A stretch of DNA of 32,438 nucleotides, taken from the NCBI GenBank assembly GCA_029260055.1, contig JAJDDX010000217.1, forward strand, positions 1 to 32,438, given 5' to 3'. This document shows, one piece after another, positions 1,555 through 26,621 of the stretch (within the stretch, counting starts at the first letter, position 1; every line of letters starts with the position of its first letter). The DNA is from Phycisphaerae bacterium (GTDB taxonomy: Bacteria > Planctomycetota > Phycisphaerae > UBA1845). Under the pieces are notes generated by a model. It saw nothing but the letters and a program-made list of their open reading frames with translations. It made no database searches and was not told where the DNA came from. Both the position numbers and the translations under genes were made by a program.

Positions 1555-4257
1555 CTAGCACTCGGTCGCGGGATCGCCGGGCGCCTCGCCTTGGTCCGTG
1601 TCTGAGCCCTCCTTCGAGTCTTCTGCATCTTCGGCCTGCTCGCTCGACTCGGACTCTTGGCTCGCCGCAGCCGCCCATACGGCGCGGATCTGGTTGGCGA
1701 TGCGTGCGATCTCCTCGGACTGCGGATCTTGCTTCAGTACGGCCGCGACCTCGGCTGCCGTGTCCTCCGCCAGCACGGCGAGGAACATGAAGGCACCGGC
1801 CCGGCACTCCGCGGATTCGTCCGCCGATAACGCCTGTTCACGTAGCGCGTCGATGTGTTCAGCGTAGCCGGCGACGAGCCCCGCCCCACCGTCCGGCAAT
1901 GTACCGAGAAGGATTGCACGCGTCGCGAGAGCCACGGCCTTGTCGACGGCGCCTCGATCGCGTTCCAGGACGCTCAGATTAGCGGTCGCCTTCGCGTGGC
2001 GCGGGTCGATTTCCAGCGCCCGTTCGTAGTGCGCGCGGGCGGCGCCCGTTTCGCCCGCACCCTTGAGCAGAATCGCGTAGTTGTAGTGCGCCTCCGCGTG
2101 GCGCGGGTTGATTTCCAGCGCCTCTTCGTAGTGCTCGCACGCGGCGTCCGTTTCGCCCGCATCCTCGAGCAGAATCGCGTAGTTGTAGTGCGCCTCCTGG
2201 TTGCGCGGGTTGATTTCCAGCGCCCGTTCGTAGTGCTCTCGCGCGGCGTCCGTGTCGCCCGCACCTACGAGCACAATCGCGTAGTTGTTGTGGACATCGT
2301 CAGCCGCCGGGGCCTTCTCGACAGCGGCGCTGTTTACCGTCAGCGCAGCCTCAGATCGCCCCGAGAGATACAAGAATGCACCCCAGATCTGGCTCAGGCT
2401 CTCCGCGCTGCAGGCGCGCCAATGCTCAGCCGAGACCCTGTCGTGAATCGCATCCCACGCCTCGACGGCTCCTGCCCCCAAGCCCCGCATGCGGAACGTA
2501 TCGAACAAGTCTCCGAGAAACGGCGTTTGCACCGGGTCCTCCACCGCGACATTCACGATGGCGGCAAACGCTCGGGATGCGGGATTCGGGTCAGACACCG
2601 GCGAATCCTCGATGAACCGGGCCGCATGGCGCTCGTGCGTCACCGCGAGTTCGCCATCTGTGATCCGGATAGCCTCGACGGCGAGGTCTCTGTTGAACGC
2701 GAAAGCCTCCCCCAACTCGTCCACGGACAAGACGTCCTTCGCGATCTTCTCCGGCAGCGCCAAGCCCACCCTGCCCGGCACGCAAACGAGCGTGTAGAGC
2801 TTCTTGAACGCCGCCGCACCCGGGTCACCGTCGTGCTTGTCCAGCGCCTCTTTGACGACGTAGTCGACGTGCCGGAAGTGGCCCTTGCTAACGACCCCAA
2901 TCACCCTGGCAAGGTATCCGGGCCCGCCATCGACTCTGGATACAGCTTCGTGCAGGGCATCGCGCTTCTCGGATGGGATCGCCACCATCCCAGTCTCTTC
3001 GAGTCTATCGATCAGGGCGTCGACTTCGCGGTGGGCGAGGTCGAGACCGTAGACTCGCTCCTCGGCGTACAGGGGATGCTGTGCGAGGCCCCTTTCCTGC
3101 CAGAGCCGGCGCTGCTCGGCAGTCAGGACCAGCACCGGGATTCTCTTGTCACTCAGATGCACCATTTGCGATATGAAGTTCTCGGCTCGGTGGGCGGGGT
3201 TGTCGACCAAGAGCACCACCGGCAGATCCGAGAAGTGACTGACGTGGCGCTCGAGCCATTTGGCGTACGGCGTGCCTTCGTCGGCCGCATCCAAGGCCAG
3301 AACCGGATGGCCGAGCATCGCAAGATCGTATCCGAGGCGCAACAAGAACGTCGTCTTTCCGACTTGCGTATCGCCGAGGAAGGCGAACATCGCGGGCGCC
3401 TTGGCTCGGGCGATCGTCTCCATGACGCGCGGGTAGACGCTGCGGCGAAAGTCGATGCCTTGTTCGATGTCCTCGAAGAACGGACGCTTGCCCCACAGCA
3501 GACCGTTGGTCGGCTTCGGCTCGCGGCGCACGGGGCGAACGGGCGTTACGGGAATCGGCTCGGCCGCAAGCAGACGAAGCAGCAGGCTGACGATGTAGCC
3601 GTTGCTGCGATGGATCGCCCGCAGCAAGGTCGCCTGCTCTCGCACCTCCGCCAGCATCAACGCGTGCTCTTTATGGCTCCGCAACTGCGAGAGGCCGAAG
3701 TCCTGTTCCGCTCGCGTTTCCACCGATTCGAGGAGCGTGCGGACCTTGGCGGCGTCGACCTTGGCATTGTCCGCAAGCTCCCGAGCGAGTTGCTCCCGGC
3801 GGTCAGCTCGTACGGCGGGGTCGGCCTCCAGCACGGCACCGGCGATCTGTGACGCGATCACCGGATCGCCGATCACATATTTATCGAGCTTGACCATCTC
3901 CGGGTCGGCGGCGACGGCGTCGCCGAGAGTGCCTGCGGACAGTTCGCCTGCGCGGGCCTCCGGCGTCTTGTACCGTTCACATGCTTCGAGGAGCTTCTTC
4001 AGTCGCGCCTTACCCGCTTCGTCGAGCTTCTGGTCCTTGTCGGACACCCACGCGACGAATGCGCTTCCGATGACACCCAGGATGAATTGCTCTAAGCCCG
4101 TCACGTAATGCGCACTCGATCGGGAGTCCACAGACAGTGCATTCGGTTCCAAGTCAGGGCAAACAGGCGGAAGAGCGACCCCGACCGTAGTACCGGAGTG
4201 TACCTGAGGGAGCGCGCGCGGACAAGTTGCAGAGGCCGCCGACGAGCGGGCCGTCAC
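1555..4257 (-). CDS. STAND-like P-loop NTPase with C-terminal TPR repeats
   Basis: This 900-residue frame has a helical N-terminal part (about 52-240), a proline-rich linker (about 233-250), a P-loop ATPase core and a TPR tail. Walker A is GDTQVGKTT near residues 295-303 and Walker B is LPVVLLVDN near 345-353. Three 34-residue TPRs at about 653-755 are nearly identical (for example HYNYAILL then ALEINPRHAEAH), encoded by 102-bp DNA repeats. The C-terminus is acidic and low in complexity. The order effector-like region, NTPase, repeat sensor matches STAND proteins, many of which act in signalling or phage defence; the N-terminal domain is not recognised, so no effector is assigned. The start is a GTG without a good ribosome binding site, and GTG 4104, giving VTGLEQF, is a credible alternative. 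It follows the GT2 gene by 33 bp and may share its transcript. Confidence 0.8.
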   Translation of the reverse strand: MTARSSAASATCPRALPQVHSGTTVGVALPPVCPDLEPNALSVDSRSSAHYVTGLEQFILGVIGSAFVAWVSDKDQKLDEAGKARLKKLLEACERYKTPEARAGELSAGTLGDAVAADPEMVKLDKYVIGDPVIASQIAGAVLEADPAVRADRREQLARELADNAKVDAAKVRTLLESVETRAEQDFGLSQLRSHKEHALMLAEVREQATLLRAIHRSNGYIVSLLLRLLAAEPIPVTPVRPVRREPKPTNGLLWGKRPFFEDIEQGIDFRRSVYPRVMETIARAKAPAMFAFLGDTQVGKTTFLLRLGYDLAMLGHPVLALDAADEGTPYAKWLERHVSHFSDLPVVLLVDNPAHRAENFISQMVHLSDKRIPVLVLTAEQRRLWQERGLAQHPLYAEERVYGLDLAHREVDALIDRLEETGMVAIPSEKRDALHEAVSRVDGGPGYLARVIGVVSKGHFRHVDYVVKEALDKHDGDPGAAAFKKLYTLVCVPGRVGLALPEKIAKDVLSVDELGEAFAFNRDLAVEAIRITDGELAVTHERHAARFIEDSPVSDPNPASRAFAAIVNVAVEDPVQTPFLGDLFDTFRMRGLGAGAVEAWDAIHDRVSAEHWRACSAESLSQIWGAFLYLSGRSEAALTVNSAAVEKAPAADDVHNNYAIVLVGAGDTDAAREHYERALEINPRNQEAHYNYAILLEDAGETDAACEHYEEALEINPRHAEAHYNYAILLKGAGETGAARAHYERALEIDPRHAKATANLSVLERDRGAVDKAVALATRAILLGTLPDGGAGLVAGYAEHIDALREQALSADESAECRAGAFMFLAVLAEDTAAEVAAVLKQDPQSEEIARIANQIRAVWAAAASQESESSEQAEDAEDSKEGSDTDQGEAPGDPATEC
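1994..2299 (-). repeat. Three 102-bp coding repeats (TPR units)
   Basis: Units start at 1994, 2096 and 2198 in + coordinates. Each encodes one 34-residue TPR, and the units are alike at the nucleotide level, not only in protein. That points to recent duplication or ongoing homogenisation inside the STAND gene. Confidence 0.8.
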
Positions 4258-8712: not shown

Positions 8713-9858
8713 TTAACCGCCCGGGGTCACGAAGATAAACCCTGATCCGACGTTGTACCTCAGCGTCGGGTTACCGAACTCGTCAAGAACGACGCCCCCC
8801 TCGTCATCGAATTCCACCTGATTGTTCGTGGCAGTGATCGTCACTGTCACCGTCTCGCCGCAGGCGTAGTGGATGCCGTCCTGGAGGAGGCGCCCCCGGC
8901 TGACCGGGATGCTGGTGCTATCGAACCCGTCGGTACCGGTGCCGTCTCCGGTGAGGACGACCCCGTGGAAATTGACCCCGCCGCCGCTGTCGAAGATCGT
9001 CGCACCGCCCTCGCTGTAGGTCGTGGCAGTAGCTTCAAGATGAGCAGCGGCGACGATGTACTCCGTCGCGCACTCGGCCGACCCACGGGTGGTCGCTCCC
9101 GACGGAACGCGCACGTCGAATTCCGCCGCCAAGCCCGAGCCGTCGCCACCGGACAGCGTGCCGTCCCCCGCGGCGAAGTTCACCTGGACGGTGCTCTCGG
9201 TCTCGTTCACGACGACCAAGGCCACCTGCTCGACTTCCGGCTCGACCACGTCACCGTCGCCGTCCCCGGGGTCGGGTTCGGTTGTGCCACCACCGGACGT
9301 GATCGGCTCGGGAAGCGGCGCCCCCTGGGCGACCACATCGATCTCGCCACTGTCCGACCTCGGCAACTGAATCAAAATGGTGTCGTTGCAGGCGAAGTGC
9401 GTGTCCGCGATCAGAAACCGCTCGCCGGTAAGACCGACGCTACCGGAGTCGAACCCGGGCGTGCCGGTGCCCGCGCCGGTCAGATCGACCGCAGCCGACT
9501 CAGCATCGCCCACGGTCACGGTGACGGTCAGCATGTCACCGCACAGCACGGCCCCGCCAGTAACCTCGCCGGCCTGGACACGGATATTGGTGTCGACGGT
9601 CTCGATTTCGGTCGTGCTGACGTGTGTCTCGTGGTCCGTGACCACGCGCGCGATCGAGGTCGTCACGTTCACGTTGGCTGTGTCCGGCGCGGCGTTCTCG
9701 ATGCGGAGGGATACTGCGGACTCGGCTGTCGTCTCGATGAATCCCAGACCGCACCCGCCGAAGGCCACCGCCAGGGTTGCGGCCGCCACGGTGAACAGGG
9801 CCGGGAGTCCGACGTAGCAACCGCTCAGGCGTGCGCGTGACTTCTTGTTTAGCTTCAT
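8713..9858 (-). CDS. Secreted or lipoprotein-like protein with two duplicated beta domains
   Basis: 381 residues starting MKLNKKSRARLSG, then a hydrophobic stretch ending AVAFGGCG. That is a signal peptide with a poor lipobox, so it may be a lipoprotein. The mature part is two similar halves separated by an acidic Gly/Pro/Asp linker near residue 190 (EPDPGDGDGDVVEPE). The halves share LTGxGTGTxGFDS, then a segment ending HFAC or HYAC, then a beta strand (TILIQL or TVTVTIT). Each half has two cysteines, which suggests one disulfide per domain. I do not recognise a family. The start at 9858 was chosen for its signal peptide; no strong ribosome binding site is seen. It is convergent with the ABC ATPase gene. 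Confidence 0.75.
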   Translation of the reverse strand: MKLNKKSRARLSGCYVGLPALFTVAAATLAVAFGGCGLGFIETTAESAVSLRIENAAPDTANVNVTTSIARVVTDHETHVSTTEIETVDTNIRVQAGEVTGGAVLCGDMLTVTVTVGDAESAAVDLTGAGTGTPGFDSGSVGLTGERFLIADTHFACNDTILIQLPRSDSGEIDVVAQGAPLPEPITSGGGTTEPDPGDGDGDVVEPEVEQVALVVVNETESTVQVNFAAGDGTLSGGDGSGLAAEFDVRVPSGATTRGSAECATEYIVAAAHLEATATTYSEGGATIFDSGGGVNFHGVVLTGDGTGTDGFDSTSIPVSRGRLLQDGIHYACGETVTVTITATNNQVEFDDEGGVVLDEFGNPTLRYNVGSGFIFVTPGG

Positions 9859-10308
9859 GGCATGTTCGACAGAAAAAGGGTTTTCCCGCGACAGGCCCGG
9901 ATCGCACGGCTGCGCCGTCTCGGCGTGGCCGCGCACCGGTACCCAAAACAAACTGCACGCCGATAAATCGGCGGTTTGCGGGCCCTTCTGAAGCTGTGAG
10001 TTCACAACGCCTACCAGCATTGCCGGTGGGGTTAACACCCCATTAACAGTGCTGACAAACCGCATCGTCCAATAATAACCTCAAGTTTTTCAACGCTGGT
10101 ACCCGATACCTTGGGACGAGTGGATACTCCAAGCTTCGCGCAGGATCGGCGTGGCGTCGTCATGGATGGCGGTTGTCGCGCACTGGGGATTCTTCGCGCG
10201 GCGTGAAACTCACCGTTTTCGTCCATCGACCGGTAGCAGGAGGCGGCCAGTCGAAGCGGATCTCGTTCACCTCGCCTCCTGTATCGCAACTAAAAAGGGC
10301 TGCAAACC
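9859..10308. promoter_or_regulatory. Divergent intergenic region with a short dyad
   Basis: 450 bp between two divergent genes, so promoters for both should lie here. TGGGGT (10027-10032) and ACCCCA (10037-10042) form a 6-bp inverted repeat around TAAC. It sits within an AT-richer stretch, and a weak minus-strand -35-like TTGTCA lies nearby. No convincing promoter or open frame is seen otherwise. Confidence 0.4.
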
Positions 10309-11913
10309 GTGCGCACGATCACTATAGCCAACCAGAAGGGTGGTTGCGGCAAGACCACCGTCGCCATCAATCTGTCAGCCTCGATCGCCCGCGAGGGACG
10401 CCGGACGCTGCTGATCGACCTCGATCCGCAGGGGCACTGTGCGTTGGGCATGGCTGTGCCCGACGAACAGATCGACCTGTCCATCTACGAATGCCTGATG
10501 TCGCTGATCGAGGGCGAGCCGGTCGAGCTGTCACGCATCACGTGGCAGATCACGCCCAACCTCGATCTCGCCCCGTCGCGATCGAACCTGGCCGGCCTCG
10601 AGCCCAGGCTCGGCGAACGCGAGAACGCCGACCGCCTGCTATCCGACCTGCTCGAAGCCAACGCCGGCGCGTACGACTACTGCGTCATCGACTGCCCGCC
10701 CCACCTCGGGGCGTTGATGAAGAACGGGCTTCACGCAGCCAACGACATCGTCATCCCCGTCGACACCGGCTTCTTCTCCCTGCACGGGCTCACGCAGCAA
10801 CTCGCCACCATCGAGATGCTCTCCGAGCGTTTCCAGCACAACCCGTCGGTTCGCGTGCTGCCCAACCAGTACGACGTGCGCACCAAGCTCGGACGAGAAA
10901 TCCTCGCGGAGTTGCGGAAGCGATTCGAGCACGTCGTCTTCGAGACCATCGTGAACTTCAACACCAAACTCAAGGAAGGCGCCAGCTACGGCCAACCCAT
11001 CACGGAATTCGCTCCGACCAGCAGCGGCGCCCGCGACTTCCAGAAGCTCGCCAGGGAGATCCTGTCGAGCGAACCGCTCGCGGCGCCGACCGCCGACATC
11101 CTACAGCACGTCGAACGCCTCGCCGCCGACGCCGAACGGCTGCTGGCGACGACAACGACGCTGGTAGGTAACCGCGACGCCACGACCACGGCTCCCGTCC
11201 AAGCTCCCGTTCCGGTCATGCCGCCGGCGGACGTGCCCTCGTACCCCGCCGTCACGGAACCGAACTCGGCCCCCGTATCGGCGCCGGCCGCACTGCAGAC
11301 GACCGTCAGCCCCGTGCAGCCGCCGTTTGACCTCGGACGCCTGGAGCCGGCTGCAGCCGCCGTCGCGACGGTCGCCACACCAAAGCCCACGGCACCGACG
11401 GCGAAGCCAACGAACGACAGTCCAGCACCACCGCGCCCAGCCGCCCAGCCGAGCACGCCGAGGACCACGCCGGTAAACGGCGTACCGGCATCGCCTTCGG
11501 CCGCCACACCGGCAGCGGCCGGCCCCGCGGGCTCCACAACGCCGGCGCCGCCGAGGCCACCGGCTCCCATGCAGACGCCCCCCGCCTCGCAGCCTACGCC
11601 ACACGAAGCGATCGAACGCAAGATCGAGCAGATCTACGGCGTACGGCAGCAGGGAGAGATCGCCATTTTCCGCGCTCGCCATCCCGAGGCGTCGGAGATG
11701 CAGCTCGCGGGCGACTTCAACGACTGGATGCCCCATACGACGCCAATGCGGCGACTCCCCGAAGGGGAGTTCGAGGCACGCCTGCGTCTGCCGAAGGGAA
11801 GATACCGCTACCGCCTGGTGATAGACGGAAGATGGTCGCACGACCTGAACAACCCGGAGGTGGAGCGTAACGAATACGGTGAACTGAACTCGATCGTAGA
11901 GGTCGCCACATAG
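10309..11913 (+). CDS. ParA/MinD-type ATPase fused to a C-terminal CBM48 (glycogen-binding-like) domain
   Basis: 534 residues in three parts. Residues 1 to about 265 are a ParA ATPase: deviant Walker A KGGCGKTT at 10-17 with the signature lysine, LLIDLDPQG near 40 (A') and YCVIDCPPH near 125 (Walker B). Residues about 285-430 are a Pro/Ala/Thr-rich linker. Residues about 445-530 match the CBM48/AMPK-beta glycogen-binding fold: AGDFNDWMPH, then GEFEARLRLPKGRYRYRLVIDG and a final NEYGELNSIV. ParA proteins form ATP-driven dimers on DNA or membrane and position cargo, while CBM48 domains bind alpha-glucans, so the fusion could tether or place polysaccharide granules; that is inference. No parB gene or carbohydrate enzyme is adjacent. 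The start is GTG with AAGGG about 10 nt upstream. Confidence 0.9.
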   Translation: MRTITIANQKGGCGKTTVAINLSASIAREGRRTLLIDLDPQGHCALGMAVPDEQIDLSIYECLMSLIEGEPVELSRITWQITPNLDLAPSRSNLAGLEPRLGERENADRLLSDLLEANAGAYDYCVIDCPPHLGALMKNGLHAANDIVIPVDTGFFSLHGLTQQLATIEMLSERFQHNPSVRVLPNQYDVRTKLGREILAELRKRFEHVVFETIVNFNTKLKEGASYGQPITEFAPTSSGARDFQKLAREILSSEPLAAPTADILQHVERLAADAERLLATTTTLVGNRDATTTAPVQAPVPVMPPADVPSYPAVTEPNSAPVSAPAALQTTVSPVQPPFDLGRLEPAAAAVATVATPKPTAPTAKPTNDSPAPPRPAAQPSTPRTTPVNGVPASPSAATPAAAGPAGSTTPAPPRPPAPMQTPPASQPTPHEAIERKIEQIYGVRQQGEIAIFRARHPEASEMQLAGDFNDWMPHTTPMRRLPEGEFEARLRLPKGRYRYRLVIDGRWSHDLNNPEVERNEYGELNSIVEVAT

Positions 11914-12035: not shown

Positions 12036-12590
12036 ATGGAGCTCTCAGGCGATGCCCTGACCGAATGCCCGGCCTGTCATTACGACCTGACCGGTTTGCC
12101 AAAGACGCACCGTTGCCCTGAGTGCGGGTTCGAGTACGACGAAACGATGCGCGTGCTGTGGACGCCCGACCGACGTGCACGCTGGCTCTTCGTCATCGAG
12201 ATCATCCTCCTCGCCCTCTTCGCACCGCAATTCGTAGCGCTTTCGCTGAAGGGGTTCGACGGTTGGCAAGCTTACTGCGGCGTCGCCTGGCTGGTCGGCG
12301 TCGCGTTCTACGTCCCACTCTTGTGGCGTGCGAGGCGCACAAGGGCATTCGTACTCGTCGGCGCTGAAGGGCTCTGCTACCGAGCCTGGCTAAGCCGGGT
12401 CGAGAGGATCCCCTGGCAGAGCGTGAGATACCCCGGCGAAACGAGGATCCCGCACCGCACCGTCGCTGGCCGGATGCGCGCGATTCGGTTGCCAATGCGA
12501 CGGGTCTTTGAATCCGAGCGCTGGCGGGTCGAGGTGACGGTTTACCAGGCGTGGAGAGAAGCGACTTCGCGGTCAAACGAAGCCGAGTAA
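12036..12590 (+). CDS. Zinc-ribbon membrane protein of planctomycete type
   Basis: 184 residues. The N-terminus has two CxxC pairs in the pattern CPACHYDLTGLPKTHRCPECGF, a zinc ribbon widely seen at the N-terminus of Phycisphaerae membrane proteins. Two hydrophobic segments (about 50-70 and 80-100) follow, then a basic C-terminal part with alternating hydrophobic residues that resembles a PH-like beta domain (VLVGAEGLCYRAWLSRVERIPWQSV). Function unknown. GGAGG sits 3 nt before the ATG, slightly close but convincing. It follows the terminator of the ParA gene, so it has its own transcript. Confidence 0.8.
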   Translation: MELSGDALTECPACHYDLTGLPKTHRCPECGFEYDETMRVLWTPDRRARWLFVIEIILLALFAPQFVALSLKGFDGWQAYCGVAWLVGVAFYVPLLWRARRTRAFVLVGAEGLCYRAWLSRVERIPWQSVRYPGETRIPHRTVAGRMRAIRLPMRRVFESERWRVEVTVYQAWREATSRSNEAE

Positions 12591-14213: not shown

Positions 14214-14433
14214 CGAACTCAACCTATTTTATTGGAATGGGCGATAAGAAGGGCGAGATAGCGACCCAACGGGTGGCTGCTGCCGTTTCCAGCATTGTCC
14301 TCGACGCGCCCAAATTCGGGAAACACGGCAAAGAGGGCTTGCAACCGGGGCGATCGCCGATTGATATAAGTGATGTGTCGACGTTCGAAGTCGGGCGTCG
14401 CAATACATAACCAGTGCGCAGGAAGTGAAGGAA
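14214..14433 (+). promoter_or_regulatory. Intergenic region, possible promoter of the secreted-protein gene
   Basis: 220 bp without a credible gene. A -10-like TATAAG lies at 14365-14370, about 64 nt before the next start, with TTGCAA 20 nt further up, a spacing longer than ideal. A 10-bp palindrome GGCGATCGCC lies between them. Confidence 0.3.
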
Positions 14434-15531
14434 ATGGTCTTGCGAAAACGAATCAATTGGCTGCTCGGGCTAGGGATGGCCGTCGCTGCCGCGAATACCA
14501 CCTCGGCTCAAACGCCGCCTGACGACACGGCGACCCCGCCCGGCTTCGGACCCACGTCCGCGACGGTCGAGCGGATCATGGAGACGGCGGTCCACAACAT
14601 CGCCGCTCGCTACAACCTGAACGAGTTGCAGAGAATCTCGACCAACGACCTGATGAAGCGCGAGGTCCGGCAGTTTCTGCGGGACCACGAGGCCGAGGTA
14701 TGGCCGGCCATTAGAAGCATGCTTCAAACCCAGTTCGGCCTCGTGAAACCCGAGGACGTCGAAGAGGTCAAGCGCGTCGGCGCCGCCACAAGGCCGCTGG
14801 CCAAGTTGGCCAAAGAGGCGATCTTCCGCGCCAACGAGGAGTGGCGGCAGATCCTGAACGAAGAGCAGAAGAAGGTCCACGACTTCGACATGACGGAAAT
14901 GCGGCGCACGTTCACCGAGATCGACACGAACCTCGCCTCATGGGAGGAAGGTAATCCCAAGGACAACGGCTTCTTCCCCATACCTTCGGGCCAGGCCGGG
15001 CCGCCCCGGCCGCCGCAACCGCGGATCCCCGAGAAGCCTGACTATCGCGGTCGCGAGATTCCGGTCGGTATCCTCGCCATCTACGTCGAGGAGTTCATCA
15101 AGGACTACAACCTGAATGAGGGGCAGATCACGGCCTGCCGGTCGATCCTCGTCGAGTTCCAGGAGCGGGCCAACACCTTCAAGAACGCGAAGAAGGAAGA
15201 GTTCGCCAAGGTCGTAAAGGGGCTGGATGACGCGAAGAGAGCACGCGACACGGCGGGGATTCGTCGAGCCACGCTGGCACACAAGAAAGCGCTCGAGCCG
15301 TTCTACGCCATCTTCAGCGAGATGCAGGAACGCCTCAAGGGTCAGCTCACCACCGCGCAGTTGCAGAAATTCGCCGATCGTAACAAACCCCGCGAGAGGG
15401 ATAGAACCACCAAGGGGAGGAAGACCGCCGGCGAGAAGAAGGGCCAGACACCAAAGCCCAAAGTCGATAAGCCGAAACCGGTAGCCGGCGACCCCAAGGC
15501 GAAGCCGGCTCCTGCACCCAAGAAGGACTGA
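14434..15531 (+). CDS. Secreted helical protein, unknown function
   Basis: 365 residues. A classic signal peptide (MVLRKRIN, hydrophobic core, TSA before QTPP near residue 24) indicates Sec export. The mature protein is rich in charged helices in two blocks separated by a Pro-rich linker near residue 185. Segments such as LNEGQITACRSILVEFQERA resemble the LTxxQ-type helices of CpxP/Spy-like periplasmic proteins, but the match is too weak to name. The last 50 residues are a Lys/Pro/Ala-rich tail. GTG 14425 is also possible, but AGGA 10 nt upstream fits ATG 14434 better. Confidence 0.75.
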   Translation: MVLRKRINWLLGLGMAVAAANTTSAQTPPDDTATPPGFGPTSATVERIMETAVHNIAARYNLNELQRISTNDLMKREVRQFLRDHEAEVWPAIRSMLQTQFGLVKPEDVEEVKRVGAATRPLAKLAKEAIFRANEEWRQILNEEQKKVHDFDMTEMRRTFTEIDTNLASWEEGNPKDNGFFPIPSGQAGPPRPPQPRIPEKPDYRGREIPVGILAIYVEEFIKDYNLNEGQITACRSILVEFQERANTFKNAKKEEFAKVVKGLDDAKRARDTAGIRRATLAHKKALEPFYAIFSEMQERLKGQLTTAQLQKFADRNKPRERDRTTKGRKTAGEKKGQTPKPKVDKPKPVAGDPKAKPAPAPKKD

Positions 15532-15614
15532 CGGAATCCGGACCGGAGGGCGGCCAGCGTGCCGTGCCGCCTTCCGAGTCCACAAGGCACACCCTGTGGG
15601 CCGAGCGGCGTTGC

Positions 15615-15637
15615 GAGACGGCGGGCGGCTTTTTTTT
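15615..15637 (+). terminator. T-tract terminator after the secreted-protein gene
   Basis: GC-rich sequence ending GGCGGGCGGC runs into eight Ts at 15630-15637. A possible 5' arm (GCCGCC) lies upstream near 15564-15570, so the loop would be long. The T-tract supports a rho-independent terminator; the stem is uncertain. Confidence 0.45.
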
Positions 15638-15701
15638 CATGTCAAGCACGCGGCACTGGCTATCGGACGGCATTTCCCGACGTCATGACACCATCCGCCG
15701 T

Positions 15702-15731
15702 TTGCCTCGGGCCAAGGCGAATCCTAAGATT
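15702..15731 (+). promoter_or_regulatory. Candidate promoter of the small conserved gene
   Basis: TTGCCT (15702-15707), an 18-nt spacer and TAAGAT (15726-15731). It lies about 80 nt before the start at 15812 and just after the preceding T-tract. Confidence 0.45.
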
Positions 15732-15811
15732 CTGTGGACGAGGTACGCATGTGCCCGGCGGCGCCGCGGGGTGGTGGCGATGCCGGCTATCGACACGGGA
15801 TTCACGAGATT

Positions 15812-16348
15812 ATGGAACCGGTCAATCGGGATCATCCACTTCGGCACCTGTTTGCCGGGCTCGTCGAGCACACCTTCTTCACCGAGGTAGGCCTCTGCGA
15901 CCCGCACCTGACCGAGTATCTGGCTGATCTGCTGGTCGACTTCACCCACGTGGACAAGTTCCAGGCGATTTCAAACGCCCAGGGCAAAAGACTCGAGCAG
16001 ATCGCGGCCATGTTATCGCTAGTGGCCAACGACCAGCCCAAAGACCGAGCCGACCGCGACCGAAAAATGTACCGCCACATCGGCGATTACACGCTCTTTT
16101 GGGCCGGAGTTTATCCCGAACAACTCCGCAGGGCGTCAGCCGGCGCCTCCGACCTGCTCCTGAGCTACGTCACGCAAGGCAAGCAGTCGTACGCCATCGT
16201 GTCGGAACTCGCCGACGAGAGCGACACCCTGCCGGCCTCCCTCTTCCGCCACCTCAGCGAGGACTTCGAGTATTGCCTCTACGGCCTCGGCCTCGTCCGG
16301 CGAGAGTGGGAACATCCCGAGGCGGGCCCCGGCGAGCTGCTCTACTGA
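15812..16348 (+). CDS. Conserved hypothetical cytoplasmic protein
   Basis: 178 residues starting MEPVNRDHPLRHLF. It is mostly helical, with no signal peptide or membrane segment. Conserved-looking features are HTFFTEVGLCDPHLTEYLADLLVDFTH near the start and a final EDFEYCLYGLGLVRREWE. I do not recognise a named family. The frame is open from 15734, but those 26 residues are poor in character; ATG 15812 has GGGA about 10 nt upstream. It ends 89 nt before the tRNA-Asn gene, same strand, and is separately transcribed because the tRNA has its own promoter. Confidence 0.7.
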   Translation: MEPVNRDHPLRHLFAGLVEHTFFTEVGLCDPHLTEYLADLLVDFTHVDKFQAISNAQGKRLEQIAAMLSLVANDQPKDRADRDRKMYRHIGDYTLFWAGVYPEQLRRASAGASDLLLSYVTQGKQSYAIVSELADESDTLPASLFRHLSEDFEYCLYGLGLVRREWEHPEAGPGELLY

Positions 16349-16363
16349 AAGCCCGCAGCAACC

Positions 16364-16391
16364 TTGACTTGGAGCCCCTACGCGGTATAGT
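16364..16391 (+). promoter_or_regulatory. Sigma70 promoter of tRNA-Asn
   Basis: TTGACT (16364-16369), a 16-nt spacer and TATAGT (16386-16391), close to consensus. The predicted start near 16398 gives a 40-nt leader before the tRNA. Confidence 0.75.
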
Positions 16392-16437
16392 TCTTCGCCA
16401 CTCGTGCTTTCGGCCTCAGCCGAGCACGAGCCGCGTA

Positions 16438-16510
16438 TCCCCGATAGCTCAATTGGTAGAGCGAGCGGCTGTTAACCGCTAGGTCGTAGGTTCGAATCCT
16501 ACTCGGGGAG
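16438..16510 (+). tRNA. tRNA-Asn (anticodon GTT)
   Basis: A complete 73-nt cloverleaf. Acceptor arms are TCCCCGA and TCGGGGA with discriminator G; D-arm GCTC/GAGC; anticodon arm AGCGG, loop CTGTTAA, CCGCT; T-arm GTAGG, TTCGAAT, CCTAC. The GTT anticodon (16471-16473) reads AAC/AAU. CCA is not encoded. A promoter lies upstream and a terminator directly downstream. The gene borders the mobile element and is a natural candidate integration site, though no second copy of its 3' end was found in the window. Confidence 0.97.
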
Positions 16511-16518
16511 GTCGTCCC

Positions 16519-16545
16519 GCCACCGACAAACTCGGTGGCTTTTTT
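16519..16545 (+). terminator. Rho-independent terminator after tRNA-Asn
   Basis: GCCACCGA (16519-16526) and TCGGTGGC (16532-16539) form a perfect 8-bp stem with a CAAAC loop, followed directly by six Ts. It starts 9 nt after the tRNA. Confidence 0.92.
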
Positions 16546-16897
16546 GTTGACGCCTCGACGCCAAGCCGTCGCCACCAACGCCCGCCGTAAGTCCGCCATC
16601 CACGCGAAGTTGCGCCGCTTCCACCACTTGGCCGTACTCTCTGTTTGCATCGCCACTCTCGTCACCCCAGCCGCCACCCCCACGTTTACGCCCGCCCTCG
16701 CGCTCGACACTCTCAGACTCTCCAGCTCTCGCGGTTGACAGGCCGATTTTGTTAACAGTAGGGTTGCGTTTGCGGCCACCGCGTGACGCGAACCGAGTTC
16801 GCATCCATCTCCGGTGGTTTCGACGCGAAGGACTCAGCGACATGATGCACAAGGGTCAGGCCAGTGATCGCACGGTCGGTAAGCGGGAGCGCAACTC
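16546..16897 (+). promoter_or_regulatory. Left intergenic region of the element, candidate promoter and operator
   Basis: No credible gene. TTGACA (16735-16740) with an 18-nt spacer before TAGGGT (16759-16764) is a candidate promoter. Downstream, GCGAAC (16788-16793) and GTTCGC (16797-16802) form a 6-bp dyad around CGA, well placed as an operator for the gene at 16898. Confidence 0.4.
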
Positions 16898-17782
16898 ATG
16901 AGTCGGGAACGAGCCGATGCGCGCGCTGCCAGAGATGCCGCGATGCTCCAACAGGAGTTCGCGGCGTTGGCCCAGCGTACCCCGGATGTCGTTGGCTTCG
17001 CCGTGCAAAACCCGGCAGATCCGAAAACGCCGCTTCAGCAAGAACCGCCGGATTCTGTCGCGCTACGCGCGATCGGGGATTCCTTCGTCAATAAGTTGAT
17101 ACCCGTTCCCGCCAACGACAGGAACCGCGGACGATACAAGAAAGGCGAGTTGTTCAGAGGCAGTCAGCGTGAATTGTACGAGGCGCCGAAGCCGATCAGG
17201 TTTGTGCCTTCATCGTCGTACTGGATCTACTGCTACGGTGAGACCGACTGCTATTTACGCTTTGCGAGTACCGCGGAGGAGGCAAGTCGGTTGACAGGCC
17301 GGAGGCCGCTGATGGCATGGACTTGGCATCAGTTCCTGTTCGACTGGGCATTGGAGGACGGTTTGGTTAGATGGACGACCCTTGGTCCATATACCTTCAC
17401 CAGAGCTCTGAACCTCCCACGGGCATCGGTTCAGGCAATCGCCGATCTAATCAACGAGCTGGGCGGTACCGATCAGTGCGGCTCGGCGGTCGACGCCAAG
17501 CTGCCAGCCGCACGCGGCTGGGAACGTCTCGTACTGCATCCGTCGTCCACCGGCTGCGACCACAGCGCGGACCTCGACGGCGAACCGATCAGAATCCGTG
17601 GGGACGCGGCCTTCACGATGCTCGATATACTCCAGAAGAAGAAGGGTGAGCGCGTGAAGGCTGACGATTTGCGGATCGAAATCAACAAACGACCTGACCA
17701 GGTGCTGAGATTGCTCGACAAGCGGCTACAACGAATCATTGACCAGCCCCACAAGGGGAGCGTGGGCTACGCCATGCTGTAG
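16898..17782 (+). CDS. Hypothetical protein with winged-helix-like C-terminus, first gene of the element
   Basis: 294 residues. No named family is recognised. The N-terminal third is charged and helical; the middle is aromatic-rich (FVPSSSYWIYCYGETDCYLRF); the last 80 residues (TMLDILQKKKGERVKADDLRIEINKRPDQVLRLLDKRLQRIIDQ) read like a winged helix, and GSVGYAML closes it like a wing strand. A DNA-binding regulatory role is plausible but inferred. The start at 16898 has GGGAG about 11 nt upstream. It is the first gene after the tRNA and is read in the same direction as the recombinase cassette. Confidence 0.7.
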   Translation: MSRERADARAARDAAMLQQEFAALAQRTPDVVGFAVQNPADPKTPLQQEPPDSVALRAIGDSFVNKLIPVPANDRNRGRYKKGELFRGSQRELYEAPKPIRFVPSSSYWIYCYGETDCYLRFASTAEEASRLTGRRPLMAWTWHQFLFDWALEDGLVRWTTLGPYTFTRALNLPRASVQAIADLINELGGTDQCGSAVDAKLPAARGWERLVLHPSSTGCDHSADLDGEPIRIRGDAAFTMLDILQKKKGERVKADDLRIEINKRPDQVLRLLDKRLQRIIDQPHKGSVGYAML

Positions 17783-17797
17783 TCCGATATAGCTGGC

Positions 17798-17830
17798 ACA
17801 TTCCTCGGACATTCCTCGGACATTCCTCGG
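17798..17830 (+). repeat. Three tandem 11-bp repeats
   Basis: ACATTCCTCGG occurs three times without gaps at 17798, 17809 and 17820. One helical turn per unit suggests a protein-binding array. It sits after the first element gene and before the recombinase cassette; a further ATTCCTCGG occurs alone near 18210. Confidence 0.75.
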
Positions 17831-18039
17831 ACGTGGTTTCTCCCGGCGCACTGGCTACGCTCGCCGGTGCTATGAAGAGCGTGCCAACACAGGATTCCGT
17901 ACCGGCGGCGACCCGACACAAGATTGACGACCTGCCAGCGCGTAAAGGCAAGCTGCCTGGCACTACCGCCGGCCGACGCACTGGGCTTGCCGGAGTCAAT
18001 ACGCCGCAGCGCGTGCCTCGAGTCGTTGGTGTCAGCGAA

Positions 18040-18291
18040 ATGGCATCTGCGGCAGGCACCGACCAATCGGACGCGTCGCACGTCCGGCTCTCCGTCTCGC
18101 CAACACCCCACGAGCGTCTGCAAGAACTGACAGCGATCCTCGCCAGCGGGATTCATCGTATGGGCGGAGTTTCTCCGGTCCCGCCGGAACACCGCGAGAT
18201 CGCGGGAGATTCCTCGGAAAACCGCCTTGAAGCTGTCGCAGAGTCCTGCCCTGATGGGACCAGACGTAACGAGGCACCGAGGGCAGGATGA
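18040..18291 (+). CDS. Small hypothetical protein preceding DUF2924 (start uncertain)
   Basis: The frame is open from GTG 17833, but only the C-terminal part looks coding: PHERLQELTAILASGIHRM near residue 30 is a helix of the kind often found in a short ORF just before DUF2924 and recombinase genes in planctomycetes. Its stop codon overlaps the next start (18288), a sign of translational coupling. No domain is recognised. ATG 18040 has no good ribosome binding site, and ATG 17872 is an alternative. Function unknown. Confidence 0.5.
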   Translation: MASAAGTDQSDASHVRLSVSPTPHERLQELTAILASGIHRMGGVSPVPPEHREIAGDSSENRLEAVAESCPDGTRRNEAPRAG

Positions 18292-18793
18292 TGGCAACCG
18301 ATACCAATCAAGTCGTGAGCGAGCTGAGGGCTTTGACCGTCACGCGCCTCCGAGAGCGCTACGCCGAGGTCTTCGGCGAGAAGGCGCGGTCGTTCAACAA
18401 ACAGCACTTGGTCAAGCGGATTGCCTGGCGGGTTCAGGTACTGGCCGAGGGCGACCTGTCGGAGCGGGCACGCCAGCGGGCTCGTGAGCTGGCCAACGAC
18501 GCCGACCTGCGCGTCCGACCGCCGGCGGCGTCGGTCGCGGCAAATACCAACGGTCGAACCGTCGTATCGGCATTCCGCGGCAAGGCGGACGACCGGCTGC
18601 CGTTGCCGGGCGCGCTGCTCACCCGCCGCTACAAGGGGCGGACCGTCCAGGTGCGAGTCCTGCCGAAGGGGTTCGAGTGGGACGGAGAGGTCTACCGGTC
18701 GCTTTCCGCCGTGGCCCGAAAAATCACCGGCGCGCATTGGAACGGCTACCACTTCTTCGGCCTGTCCAGGCCTGCCAAGGAGGACGCCGCCGG

Positions 18794-18797
<4 letters not shown>
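18288..18797 (+). CDS. DUF2924 domain protein
   Basis: 169 residues. It matches DUF2924: an N-terminal helical region with LRALTVTRLRERYAEVFGEKARSFNKQHLVKRIAWRVQ, then after residue 100 LPLPGALLTRRYKGRTVQVRVLPKGFEWDGEVYRSLSAVARKITG, ending in HWNGYHFFGL. The second part resembles the small RHH/SAND-like domain common in phage proteins. DUF2924 genes are very often directly upstream of a serine recombinase, as here, so it is probably an accessory or directionality factor; that role is inferred. It overlaps its upstream and downstream neighbours by 4 nt each (ATGA), so the cassette is translationally coupled. Confidence 0.9.
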
Positions 18798-20373
<1,576 letters not shown>

Positions 20374-20389
<16 letters not shown>

Positions 20390-20793
20390 CGGTTGAGTTC
20401 GATGTCCATCTCGGGCACGGCCCTGCGGGGCGACGCGAGCTTCGTCCCGGCAACGCGCCGACCGAACCCGATCCGCCTGTGGGCTCCGTCCCTCGGGTGG
20501 CGCGGTTGATGGCCCTGGCCATCCGCTGTGAGGAACTCATCCGTCGCGGTGAAGTGGCCGACTACGCCGACCTGGCGCGCCTGGGCCATGTCACACGAGC
20601 GCGGATCACGCAGATCATGAATCTGCTGAATCTCGCACCGGACATCCAAGAGGAGATTCTGTTCCTGCCTTCAACGACCAAGGGGTGTGATCGCATCGCC
20701 GAACGGCACCTACGCCGGTTGAGTGGTGTGATCGACTGGACCGAACAGAGGCGGCGGTGGCGCAGCCTGCGCGACGACCGCATGGCTGGCTGA
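20374..20793 (+). CDS. Small HTH protein after the recombinase
   Basis: 139 residues. The segment YADLARLGHVTRARITQIMNLLNLAPDIQEEILFLP near 65-100 is a helix-turn-helix of the ParB/KorB type, but the ParB N-terminal domain is missing. GGGAGG lies 8 nt before the ATG, which is inside the recombinase gene, so the two are coupled. It is a plausible repressor or recombination regulator of the element. Which operator it reads is not known; the TTCCA-N5-TGGAA dyads and the 11-bp repeats are candidates. Confidence 0.8.
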
Positions 20794-20810
20794 GTATCAG
20801 AGGAATTACC

Positions 20811-23800
20811 GTGGACACATCGTCGTCAACAGCAAACGAAGCGCAGATCGTCCGGCACGTCCCGGCGTCGCACGATGTCGTGCCGGAATGCCTCCGGGAG
20901 CGCCGGCAATGGGTCTGCTGGAAGTACATCGATCGCGATGGCAAGCAGACCAAGCCTCCGATCAACGCGAAGACGGGCAGGAAGGCCTCGTCCACTGATC
21001 CTGCGACCTGGGCGACATTCGATCAGGCGATTGCCGCGTGCGATCGGTACCCGGATCTTGCCGGCGTCGGGTTCGTGTTCGCGCCTGACGATCCGTTCGC
21101 CGGTATCGACCTCGACAACTGCCTCGATCCCACCACGGGCGAGATCAAGCCGTGGGCACGAAGATTCCTCGATCAACTCGACAGCTACAGCGAGATCAGC
21201 CCGTCCGGCGGAGGTGTCAAGGTCTTCGTCCGTGCCACCCAGCCGGACCACGGCCGCAAGTGCAACTACGAGGACGGCGCCGTGGAGATGTACGACTCCG
21301 GGCGTTACTTCACGGTGACGGGGCAGCGCCTGCCGGACTTCTCGGCCGACGTTGAGCAACGCCAGGATAGGGTCGAAGCGATGCATAAACTCGTCTTCGG
21401 CGGGGGCCAGCGTCAGGGCCGCAGACGAACCTCCATGCCTGTGGTGGAAAAACCCGTCTCGCTCACCGACGAGCAGGTCCTCGAGAAGGCACGCGCGGCC
21501 CGCAACGGCGCCCGATTCTCAGCGTTGTTCGACCAGGGTGACACCTCGGCACACGGCGGGGACGCCAGTGCCGCGGACCTCGCCCTGTGCAGCATCCTTG
21601 CATTCTGGACGCGCAATAAGGAGCAACTCGATCGCCTGTTCCGCCGCTCCGCGCTTATGCGTGAGAAGTGGGACGAGAAGCACTACGGAGATGGCCGCAC
21701 CTATGGACAGGGCACGATCGACAAGGCCATCGAGTCGGCTACGGAAACGTACAGGCAGTCGAAGCGCGGCAACCGTGCGCTCCCCGGAGTCATCGACTAT
21801 CGAGCCACGGCGGACGGTCTCGTGTGGGACAAGCCGACGCAGCATGGTTCAGTCCCCACGCCCCTGACGAACTTCACGGCGCGGATCATAGCCGACGTCT
21901 CCCGCGATGACGGCGTCGAGACCTCGCACGTCTTCACGCTCGAGGCGGAGCTCCACGGTCGGCGCTGTCGGTTCGATGTGCCGTCCGGCAAATTCGCCGC
22001 GCTGAGTTGGGTGACAGAGTCACTGGGGGCTCGAGCCATCGTGTACCCGGGGTTCAGCGCCAAGGACCACACACGGGTGGCGATCCAGATGCTCAGCGAC
22101 GACATCGTAACCCAAGCCGTGTACACCCATCTGGGGTGGCGTAAGGTCGCCGATCGCTACGTCTACCTCCACGCGGGCGGCGCGATCGCGCCCGAAACGC
22201 CCATTGCGCCCGGAATAGAGGTAGACCCGGGCCCGGAGTTGGCGCGCTTCCGGTTTCCGTCCCCTCCACGTGACAAGCGGGCCATTGCGGCCGTGTCCAC
22301 CAGCTTGCGGATGCTCGAACTGGCTGCCGACGACGTGATTCTGCCGGTGTTTGCCGCGATCTGGCGTTCCGTGCTGGGGCCGTGCGACTTCACGATGCAC
22401 CTCAGCGGCGGGTCGGGTACCTTCAAGACGGAATTAGCGGCCCTTGCACAACAGCACTTCGGCGCAGAACTCGACGCCCGGAACCTCCCCGGCTCGTGGT
22501 CATCAACGGGTAACTCGCTGGAGGCGCTGGCCTTCATCGCCAAAGATGCGTTGCTCGTGGTGGACGACTTCGCGCCCACGGGGACTCAGCACGACGTCGC
22601 GCGGCTTCATCGCGAGGCCGCGCGCCTGATTCGTGCCCAGGGAAACCGCTCAGGGCGGGGTCGTATGCGGTCGGACGCGACGCTGCGGCCGAGCAAATGC
22701 CCACGCGGTCTCATACTGAGTACGGGTGAGGATGTTCCGGCCAGCCACTCGGTGCGTGCCAGGATCGGTGTGGTCGAGGTCGAAGGCGGCACGATCAGCC
22801 AACCTCAGTTGACCCGCTGCCAGAAGGATGCTCGGCAGGGACTCTACGCCGAAGCCATGGCCGCCTTCGTGTACTGGCTGTCGTCGCGTTACGGCGAACT
22901 GAACTTGTCGCAGGAGGTCGCTGAGCTACGCGAGCGAGCGTACCGCGAGGCCAGCGCGCACCGCCGGACGCCCGCCATGGTCGCGAGCCTGTTCGTCGGA
23001 ATCCGGTACTTCACCCGATTCGCCCATGAGATCGGGGTCTTCGACGACAGCGAAGCGGCGGCCTTCGAGAATCGAGGCTGGGACTCGTTGGGCGCCTTCG
23101 CCGCTGCACAGGCCTCGCATCTTCAGAGCGTGGACCCAATCGACCGTTTCTGCACGCTTCTGGCCTCGGCCCTGGCCAGTGGACGAGCCCACGTGGCCGA
23201 TCCGCGCGGCGAGGCGCCGGAGCAAGGCGGACCGGACGACGAGACCTCGCCCACGTCGTGGGGGTGGCGCAGGGTCACTGTGGGGTCAGGTGAACACGCA
23301 CGCGACGAATGGATGCCGCAGGGAGACCGGGTCGGATGGTACGACGCCGCCCGTGACGACCTGTACCTCGACATCGAGTCAGCCGTTCGTTTGGCGCAGG
23401 CCGCCGCACCCGGCGGAACGGACGGCATATCGTTGGCGCCGCGGACGCTGGCGAAACGCCTCAATGAGAGACGGCTCCTCCGATCGACCGACGAGAGCCG
23501 TGGCAAGAACACCGTGCAGCGCGTCCTGCAGGGACAGCGTCGCAATGTCGTCCATCTCGAAACCTCAGCCATCACCTGCGGATTACGGGCGCAACGGGCG
23601 CATCGGGCGCACGACCCTGCTTCCGGCCGTGAAAACGCCAATCGTGCGCCCGAAACGTGCGCCCCAAACTCGGCGGACACGGAGTTACGGGCGCACGTAC
23701 GGGCGCATTCTCAGGGTCATGAGGGCAGCAATCCGCCCATTGCGCCCGAAGCGCCCGTAATGGGAGGTACCCCCCCTGCTCAGGTGGCGGCGCCGACCGA

Positions 23801-23909
23801 CGCGGCGCAAGACGAAGTCGCTGAGGACATGGAGGCAGCAAAAGCGGTCCTCGCGGAGACGCTCCCCGGGCTGAAGGTCAACGCCAGGCGTGGAGGGCCG
23901 TGGGATTGA
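20811..23909 (+). CDS. PrimPol-like primase/helicase (NrS-1-like N-terminus, DUF927-like ATPase)
   Basis: 1032 residues. The N-terminal part (about 25-200) resembles the NrS-1/PrimPol group: GIDLDNC near 98 gives the paired aspartates, EISPSGGGVKVFVR near 128-141 and MYDSGRYFTVTG near 160 complete the site. A helix-bundle segment (LFRRSALMREKWDEKHYG, near 280-300) follows. The middle is a DUF927-like ATPase with Walker A GGSGTFKT near 531 and Walker B LLVVDDF near 582. A winged-helix-like segment (ISLAPRTLAKRLNERRLL) precedes a low-complexity tail. It probably primes and unwinds element DNA. GTG 20811 is chosen because AGAGGA lies 7 nt upstream; an earlier in-frame start at 20757 overlaps the HTH gene. 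Confidence 0.88.
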   Translation: MDTSSSTANEAQIVRHVPASHDVVPECLRERRQWVCWKYIDRDGKQTKPPINAKTGRKASSTDPATWATFDQAIAACDRYPDLAGVGFVFAPDDPFAGIDLDNCLDPTTGEIKPWARRFLDQLDSYSEISPSGGGVKVFVRATQPDHGRKCNYEDGAVEMYDSGRYFTVTGQRLPDFSADVEQRQDRVEAMHKLVFGGGQRQGRRRTSMPVVEKPVSLTDEQVLEKARAARNGARFSALFDQGDTSAHGGDASAADLALCSILAFWTRNKEQLDRLFRRSALMREKWDEKHYGDGRTYGQGTIDKAIESATETYRQSKRGNRALPGVIDYRATADGLVWDKPTQHGSVPTPLTNFTARIIADVSRDDGVETSHVFTLEAELHGRRCRFDVPSGKFAALSWVTESLGARAIVYPGFSAKDHTRVAIQMLSDDIVTQAVYTHLGWRKVADRYVYLHAGGAIAPETPIAPGIEVDPGPELARFRFPSPPRDKRAIAAVSTSLRMLELAADDVILPVFAAIWRSVLGPCDFTMHLSGGSGTFKTELAALAQQHFGAELDARNLPGSWSSTGNSLEALAFIAKDALLVVDDFAPTGTQHDVARLHREAARLIRAQGNRSGRGRMRSDATLRPSKCPRGLILSTGEDVPASHSVRARIGVVEVEGGTISQPQLTRCQKDARQGLYAEAMAAFVYWLSSRYGELNLSQEVAELRERAYREASAHRRTPAMVASLFVGIRYFTRFAHEIGVFDDSEAAAFENRGWDSLGAFAAAQASHLQSVDPIDRFCTLLASALASGRAHVADPRGEAPEQGGPDDETSPTSWGWRRVTVGSGEHARDEWMPQGDRVGWYDAARDDLYLDIESAVRLAQAAAPGGTDGISLAPRTLAKRLNERRLLRSTDESRGKNTVQRVLQGQRRNVVHLETSAITCGLRAQRAHRAHDPASGRENANRAPETCAPNSADTELRAHVRAHSQGHEGSNPPIAPEAPVMGGTPPAQVAAPTDAAQDEVAEDMEAAKAVLAETLPGLKVNARRGGPWD
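23585..23758. repeat. Iteron-like array of nine 9-bp repeats inside the primase gene
   Basis: Units of ACGGGCGCA or TCGGGCGCA lie head to tail at 23585, 23594 and 23603, and singly at 23687 and 23699. Reverse-complement units lie at 23645, 23658 (one mismatch), 23741 and 23750 (one mismatch). That is nine copies in 174 bp, in both orientations, in the low-complexity 3' end of the replication gene. Replication origins placed inside the initiator gene are known from phages, so a role as origin is plausible. Confidence 0.75.
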
Positions 23910-24091
23910 TCACGAACGAGGTAGCAGCGATTCCGGCGTGCGTCTGCCCCGTGTCGAACGATCGGCGGATGGGTGGTCCCGACCTGCGCCGGCACCGCGT
24001 TCGTCGTCACAGCGGGCGTTTCTGTGCGTCGTGGGGCCTACGGGCGCGGCGTGGTGGTCTCGTTGGACGCAGCGCGAGGTTAATGCGGAGG

Positions 24092-24114
24092 TTGTTTCCA
24101 GCGGATGGAAACAA
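24092..24114. promoter_or_regulatory. Dyad operator candidate 1 (TTCCA-N5-TGGAA)
   Basis: The longest of three related dyads: 9-bp arms TTGTTTCCA/TGGAAACAA, spacer GCGGA. Confidence 0.65.
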
Positions 24115-24185
24115 GAGCGCCTGGGCAGGTGTGTGGCGCAGAGTTACGCCGGATGGCTCTCACGCAGTGAACAAAGGCAGCCCGC

Positions 24186-24200
24186 TTCCAGCATGTGGAA
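24186..24200. promoter_or_regulatory. Dyad operator candidate 2 (TTCCA-N5-TGGAA)
   Basis: Arms TTCCA/TGGAA with spacer GCATG, adjoining the GGAGGT ribosome binding site of the ParB-methyltransferase gene. Confidence 0.6.
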
Positions 24201-24213
24201 TGGAGGTCACACA

Positions 24214-25524: not shown

Positions 25525-25543
25525 GAGACAATCGTCGCCACCG

Positions 25544-25840
25544 TCATCGCGCGACCAGTACCGTCACCAGTACAAAGAGCACGATCCCCACGGCGACGAA
25601 TGCGAGCATGATCCGCCTTCGCCTCCGAATGAAAGCCTCGGCTGCGGGTACGCTGAGGTACCACCGGTTGCCGGCCGTCTCCACGAAGACACCTCTCGAC
25701 GTCATGCGGCGGAAAATCCGCGAGTCACGCAGTTGGAGCTCATCGAGCGCTCGTGCTGTGTCCGGCGAGTTGGCAGCGGCTTGACGGAACACGCGGATGT
25801 ACCGGTTCTGCCGCATCACGATGACTGCTCCGCCACTCAT
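25544..25840 (-). CDS. Small membrane protein, unknown function
   Basis: 98 residues. The first 65 are basic and soluble (MRQNRYIRVFRQAAAN, DELQLRDSRIFRRMTSRGVFVETAGNRWYL). The end is a positively charged RRRRR followed by one transmembrane helix (IMLAFVAVGIVLFVLVTVLVA), so the N-terminus probably faces the cytoplasm. The soluble part is wHTH-like in pattern, but that is a weak reading. It is convergent with the methyltransferase gene, 19 nt away. The start at 25840 lacks a clear ribosome binding site; ATG 25816 is an alternative. Confidence 0.7.
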   Translation of the reverse strand: MSGGAVIVMRQNRYIRVFRQAAANSPDTARALDELQLRDSRIFRRMTSRGVFVETAGNRWYLSVPAAEAFIRRRRRIMLAFVAVGIVLFVLVTVLVAR

Positions 25841-25966
25841 GAGGACGATGCTAGGGCGATGTACATCGACGTCAACGTGCCGCCATCGCGCCCTCGGAAA
25901 GACGGTTCCCAACGGGAGCAACGCCCCGGTTGGTGCCGAGGCGTCGGAGGTGGGGCAATGACGGGC

Positions 25967-26272
25967 CTACGCGCTGATCTCGAACAGACCGCGATCGACC
26001 TTCTTGAACCGGGCCGCGTCGCCCTTGGCCGCGATCTCGCGATGGATCGCCGCGTACAGCGTGGCGTGCGGCGTCTTGCCGCCGGGGCTGGACCAGAGGC
26101 CCTGCTCGGTCATCGCGGCGATCAGGTCGCGGGCACCCATCGGCTTGTCGGCGTTGGCGAGCACCTGGAGGGCTGCGTCGAGGGCGCTGACGCGCTTCGT
26201 CACCTTCTTGCCTGCGGTCTTCTTCGCCTTGCCCTTCTTGGTCTTGGCCTTCTTTGCTTCGTTCTTCTTCAT
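25967..26272 (-). CDS. HARE-HTH domain protein
   Basis: 101 residues. A Lys/Ala-rich N-terminal tail (about 28 residues) precedes a HARE-HTH winged helix: SALDAALQVLANADKPMGARDLIAAMTEQGLWSSPGGKTPHATLYAAIHREIAAKGDAARFKKVDRGLFEIS. This domain occurs in RNA polymerase delta, ASXL proteins and restriction enzymes, and has been proposed to recognise modified DNA. Here it is separated from the methyltransferase only by the small membrane gene, which makes a link to methylated element DNA attractive but unproven. The ATG at 26272 has AGGAG 8 nt upstream. It is divergent from the zinc-ribbon gene across 152 bp. Confidence 0.9.
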   Translation of the reverse strand: MKKNEAKKAKTKKGKAKKTAGKKVTKRVSALDAALQVLANADKPMGARDLIAAMTEQGLWSSPGGKTPHATLYAAIHREIAAKGDAARFKKVDRGLFEISA

Positions 26273-26365
26273 CGCGTGTCTCCTGGACATGAGCAATCTC
26301 GCATCGACGCAACGTCGCGTGCGTGCCCCTCCATGAAGCCGAGGGGGCCAACGATCATCAAGGCA

Positions 26366-26616: not shown

Positions 26617-26621
26617 CGCCG

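Follow-up and report, generated by a model that had tools for sequence, protein, structure and literature searches.

We analysed a 32,438-nucleotide stretch of a Phycisphaerae contig, hereafter the window, which contains a gene joining a ParA-type ATPase to a glycogen-binding-like domain (Table 1). A sequence-only reading of the DNA had proposed that one uninterrupted frame links the two, and the frame proved continuous over its whole length. Pfam assigned residues 1–177 to AAA_31 (E 4.4e-45) and residues 460–533 to AMPK1_CBM (E 3.9e-11; 43.4 bits, above the curated cut-off of 26.8), with a further match to CBM_48 (E 6.7e-06). A sequence search of the PDB aligned residues 2–253 with ParA/Soj (8ray, 1wcv; E-values down to 3e-46) and residues 461–532 with the glycogen-binding domain of AMPK beta-1 (1z0n, E 9.5e-10), so the proposed pairing of a ParA core with an AMPK-beta/CBM48 domain in one protein is upheld by both searches. 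The gene is flanked in the window by a divergent lipoprotein-like gene and by one for a small zinc-ribbon-like protein.

Table 1. Features of the window, in window positions; residue numbers refer to the fusion protein.
Feature	Positions	Strand	Basis or remark
ParA-linker-CBM48 fusion protein, 534 aa	10309..11913	+	GTG start; ORF and translation, Pfam, orthologous fusions in 50 loci
ParA/Soj-type ATPase domain, residues 1–253	10309..11067	+	Pfam AAA_31, Foldseek, signature residues 50/50
Helical extension after ParA core, about residues 254–288, consensus HAERLAADAERLLATTATL	11068..11172	+	Conserved in alignment A1; helix 262–286 in model
Disordered Pro/Ala/Thr linker, about residues 289–428	11173..11592	+	Low pLDDT, little sequence conservation
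CBM48/AMPK-beta-type alpha-glucan-binding domain with leading helix and strand, residues 434–534	11608..11910	+	Pfam, model, structural matches, residues
Divergently transcribed repeat-containing protein, lipobox-like start	8713-10065	-	Conserved neighbour of the fusion (7 loci); without Pfam match
Small zinc-ribbon-like protein	12036-12590
Phage-like mobile element	14425-29334
tRNA-Asn	16438-16510
900-aa protein, novel STAND NTPase 5 domain and TPR repeats	1555-4254	-

The AlphaFold model of the fusion is confident at both ends, and pLDDT lies below 50 over most of residues 291–428. The long linker is Pro/Ala/Thr-rich, as had been described, and is predicted to be disordered over most of that stretch. 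The overall pTM of 0.54 supports no fixed arrangement of the ParA and CBM domains relative to each other. An assembly artefact or a chance read-through was ruled out as the source of the join, because the same domain order is read through in 50 loci.

The ParA half carries the deviant Walker A motif KGGCGKTT; its lysines K10 and K15, along with D37 and D128, are invariant in all 50 fusions, so that the Walker A, A′ and B signature of ParA/Soj is present. The top Foldseek matches of the model are Soj/ParA proteins (TM-score by target 0.84–0.91), and the fusion shares with the solved Soj/ParA structures (PDB 1wcv, 8ray, 6iub) 36–37% identity, a common fold over 250 residues and the signature lysine of the deviant Walker A. 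It differs from them in its C-terminal CBM48, in lacking an adjacent ParB and in its separate position in the tree, where the ParA domains of the fusions of class Phycisphaerae form one group (SH-aLRT 99), with two fusions from outside the class (L040 and L117) falling outside it. Two basic residues aligned with the YD-x-RT and NVRL regions of Soj are largely kept (R191 in 44/50 fusions and K220 in 46/50); we take these positions to be DNA-binding in Soj, and the fusion ParA may likewise bind nucleoid DNA.

No ParB gene lies beside the fusion in the window, and none was seen among the conserved neighbours of the related loci; the sole ParB_N match in the window belongs to a methyltransferase fusion within the mobile element. 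The protein is therefore a ParA by family and not a ParABS system. Identity with the cellulose-associated BcsQ was rejected, the matches being family-wide background under the NCBIfam cut-off. The window genome holds a second ParA (L145, 2225-3655 on the minus strand of contig C418), with a long Pro/Ala/Lys tail and no CBM48; no ParB was seen on that short contig.

When the last 104 residues were modelled alone, as the sequence-only reading had suggested for the C-terminal part, they gave a CBM48 beta-sandwich with a pLDDT of 89. Structural comparison with VIA placed this model close to E. coli glycogen branching enzyme (Z 14.2, 1.9 Å over 95 residues) and to AMPK beta-1 (Z 12.8, 1.2 Å over 79 residues), that is, at Z 12–14 to the CBM48s of both kinds. 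The matched structures include AMPK-beta domains solved with cyclodextrins, and overall comprise AMPK-beta and E. coli branching enzyme with cyclodextrin or malto-oligosaccharide. A helix and strand that precede the Pfam-matched region (consensus IDxKIExIYGVRQ) probably belong to the domain, as they fall inside the stretch aligned to the branching-enzyme CBM48.

In AMPK, residues W100, K126, W133, L146 and T148 touch the sugar, and their mutation markedly lowers glycogen binding (PMC2642990). Loss of the aromatic glucan-binding residues would have spoken against the proposal of a glycogen-binding domain; instead, every one of the 50 fusions has W473 and W509, the counterparts of W100 and W133. 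N527, equivalent to AMPK N150, is kept in 48/50. The K126 position is occupied by Arg in 49/50 fusions, the L146 position by Tyr or Phe and the T148 position by Glu. Compared with the AMPK-beta glycogen-binding domain and related CBM48s (PDB 1z0n, 4yef; E. coli GlgB, 4lpc), the fusion thus has the same fold, both glucan-contacting tryptophans and the conserved Asn, but departs at three contact positions and is joined to a ParA instead of forming part of a kinase complex or a GH13 enzyme. The predicted glucan site looks functional, though not identical to that of AMPK, and the fusion may bind glucan in the cell.

The sequence-only reading had also pointed to the presence of the fusion across planctomycetes as informative, and we found it across class Phycisphaerae, a little-studied group, in most families. 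The full fusion, ParA half included, was read directly in 50 loci, and both halves lay in one frame in most of 60 relatives searched. Across 198 genomes sampled from Phycisphaerae, the CBM was matched at E 1e-10 in 176; by our count of the rows listed, the match fell within a frame of at least 350 aa in about 110 of the 198, from more than 20 families, the fusion there being read from frame length. Many of the remaining matches are free-standing CBM48 proteins of about 95–200 aa, which are common in the class (G065:C151, G090:C66, G096:C6 and others); in some families such a protein replaces the fusion. Nearly all named contigs on which the full fusion was found are from Phycisphaerae and other Planctomycetota. 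Two carriers lie outside the class, one clear fusion in a 246-genome sample of the phylum (G285, locus L117) and another in Candidatus Abyssobacteria (L040, from the named-contig search), in a range that is poorly sampled beyond Planctomycetota. A contig titled Alphaproteobacteria (L022) is probably mis-binned, as its fusion closely resembles those of two Phycisphaerae loci (L014 and L034).

The two domains have changed together. Pairwise identities of the ParA and CBM parts co-vary (r = 0.89 over 1225 pairs), with means of 0.55 for ParA, 0.52 for the CBM and 0.23 for the segment between them, and the stretch from core to CBM ranges from 15 to 223 residues among orthologues. A decorative C-terminus was ruled out on this basis, the CBM being as conserved as the ATPase. 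For class Phycisphaerae, a single ancient fusion passed on vertically is the simplest explanation, with an origin that the outgroup fusions L040 and L117 may or may not share. A search of plasmids with the shortest fusion returned ordinary ParAs among the matches listed, one record being covered over more than 80%, and we found no description of a ParA-CBM48 fusion in open-licence papers. We regard the protein as a conserved, apparently undescribed ParA variant whose cargo we infer.

It had further been noted that neither a ParB nor a glycogen enzyme is adjacent to the gene. This stands for the window but overlooks a conserved neighbouring gene that accompanies the fusion in many other families. 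In 24 genomes, a same-strand gene follows the fusion directly; 23 of these belong to 13 families of the class (f9–f16, f18, f20, f22, f24 and f26), and one is G285, from outside it. The same arrangement occurs in the named loci L024, L030, L032 and L040, and a profile built from 17 of the encoded sequences (A5) found the gene beside the fusion in further families. Its product matched no Pfam family. An initial profile comparison (A4 vs A1) had failed to relate it to ParA; with 17 sequences, a clear match of its body to FlhG from the same class emerged in hhalign (probability 97.5, E 5.8e-12, 183 columns), and its match to the fusion's own ParA was weak. It resembles FlhG/MinD over these 183 columns and differs in lacking a Walker A motif and in having an additional N-terminal motif and C-terminal region, besides the absence of Pfam matches. 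Having lost Walker A, it is not expected to bind ATP in the manner of FlhG and is, as judged from its sequence, a FlhG/MinD-like pseudo-ATPase without a P-loop.

The N-terminal motif of this protein, (I/L)xx(I/L)(A/S)xx(F/Y)L(S/T), is present in 19/19 members, and the outgroup L117 follows it loosely. Some members have a basic motif region (L117, KRKKLGRGIEDF; L104, REGRGI), whilst in others it is not basic; that of L117 resembles the start of a chromosomal ParB. The L040 protein has the motif alone in common with the rest, its remainder being a different, cysteine-containing protein, and one tip on differing bodies is as expected of a ParA-contacting peptide. Partner proteins of ParA/MinD ATPases are reported to contact the ATPases by their N-termini (PMC10241942, PMC12204374). 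By analogy, the motif would likely contact the ParA domain and the protein may stimulate its ATPase; the downstream gene looks like the fusion's missing partner.

The partner gene is not adjacent in the order to which the window belongs (families f1, f2, f5 and f8), nor in f21, f23, f25 and f28. Profile matches in families without the adjacent gene were to proteins of about 300–400 aa, which in the genomes opened were FlhG, and the sole match in the window genome was its FlhG (C92). Relative to McdA/McdB and other ParA/MinD positioning systems (PMC10241942, PMC12204374), the likeness consists in a ParA-type ATPase and, in many other families, an adjacent gene whose product has a short conserved N-terminal motif. 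The fusion differs in bearing the cargo-type module on the ATPase itself, for a putative cargo, and its candidate partner is FlhG/MinD-like, not McdB-like, and not adjacent in the window's order.

The window genome carries a glycogen operon, on a different contig from the fusion, comprising a glycogen-synthase-like GT4/GT5, GH77, GlgB, a GlgX-like enzyme and a GT35 phosphorylase. The same contig encodes a TIR-domain protein (locus L146, 622-2067 on the plus strand). Enzymes of alpha-glucan metabolism occur in genomes with and without the fusion, so co-occurrence with GT5, GT35, GH57 or CBM48 does not discriminate. In one carrier, G010, estimated to be 94% complete, there was no match to GT5, GT35 or GH57 and no CBM48 protein except the fusion; this carrier seems to be without a glycogen pathway. 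That genome, along with the failure of glycogen genes to track the fusion, weakens glycogen as the cargo. The roles suggested by the sequence-only reading, to share out glycogen or to couple segregation to carbohydrate status, are plausible; for glycogen distribution, the operon in the genome speaks in favour, and the two observations just given leave it unproven. Placing glycogen would be useful to a cell, judging from an E. coli csrA mutant in which glycogen accumulates at the old poles and apparently keeps the chromosome out of them (PMC4836754).

DNA, protein organelles, chemotaxis arrays and flagella are all known to be placed by ATPases of the ParA type. Our preferred reading, which we put forward tentatively, is that the fusion is a dedicated, vertically inherited spatial regulator of the ParA class, equipped with a flexibly tethered alpha-glucan-binding module of its own, and that it spreads glycogen along the nucleoid. 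In the ATP state, two subunits would form the usual ParA sandwich dimer on nucleoid DNA, and their two CBM48 domains, on long linkers, would bind alpha-glucan (glycogen) particles or glucan-bearing enzymes on them. ATP hydrolysis, sped up by the partner, would free the complex, with the outcome that particles would be spread along the nucleoid and divided among daughters, not heaped at a pole. The partner would, in many other families, be the product of the next gene, FlhG/MinD-like, with a dead ATP site and an N-terminal motif touching ParA. Glycogen would then be the cargo. Counting against this, the fusion is not beside glycogen genes in the window, the contact positions corresponding to AMPK L146 and T148 are altered and, in the order to which the window belongs, the partner gene does not lie next to the fusion; moreover, in the positioning systems known to us the cargo binder is on the partner, not on the ATPase. 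We consider it rather doubtful that an undescribed two-protein system, ancestral to Phycisphaerae, actively segregates glycogen, with the ParA gripping glucan via CBM48 and the dead FlhG-like partner as control; if it does, it would be, to our knowledge, the first ParA system with a storage polysaccharide as cargo.

The strongest rival to the carrier reading is that the fusion senses carbohydrate status. Glycogen inhibits AMPK via the beta subunit, which serves as the model for this reading: glucan or malto-oligosaccharide on the CBM48 would alter how ParA dimerises or how fast it hydrolyses ATP, and in this way chromosome segregation or division would come under the control of carbohydrate status. 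Of the solved homologues AMPK beta is nearest, and it serves as a regulatory sensor of glycogen as well as a tether (PMC2642990); the CBM residues are under strong constraint, and a ParA backbone in a two-gene regulatory operon would suit a switch. However, a long, disordered linker of drifting sequence, with the wide range of lengths given above, would conduct allostery poorly and favours a tether, and the low pTM lends no support to a fixed two-domain arrangement; we judge the sensor possible, with clear reservations.

We see it as unlikely that the CBM48 has a ligand other than glycogen, be it a different alpha-glucan, a polysaccharide that is exported or a protein, and that the fusion positions machinery for polysaccharide synthesis, somewhat like BcsQ in the case of cellulose. 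The carrier G010 without recognised glycogen enzymes, the altered AMPK contacts, the occurrence of CBM48s in feruloyl esterases too and the position of some fusions near lipid A and sugar-nucleotide genes would all fit such a role. On the other hand, the domain is closest in sequence to AMPK-beta domains, which bind alpha-glucan, neither tryptophan varies, and the resemblance to BcsQ is only that general to the ParA family. That the protein is an ordinary chromosome-segregating ParA with a decorative tail is highly improbable: its core is near Soj and keeps the basic surface residues, but the genome has another ParA (C418), relatives hold several ParA homologues each, no ParB is adjacent and the CBM is conserved like the ATPase.

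That a ParA with a glucan-binding module is conserved suggests that active placing or sensing of stored sugar may occur in bacteria, a subject that has received little attention. As far as the sequences indicate, the fusion family may help Phycisphaerae to place stored carbohydrate or share it out at division, and the conserved pseudo-ATPase encoded next to it, for all its lack of a Pfam match, is a concrete candidate partner.

Elsewhere in the window, the phage-like mobile element lies near the tRNA-Asn gene and encodes a DUF2924 protein, a large serine recombinase, an NrS-1-type primase (1050 aa), the ParB_N-methyltransferase fusion, a terminase large subunit and a tyrosine integrase. No capsid gene was recognised within the element, and no repeat of the tRNA-Asn end was found within the window. 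The 900-aa protein with the STAND NTPase domain and TPR repeats, encoded on the minus strand upstream of the fusion, is possibly defence-related.
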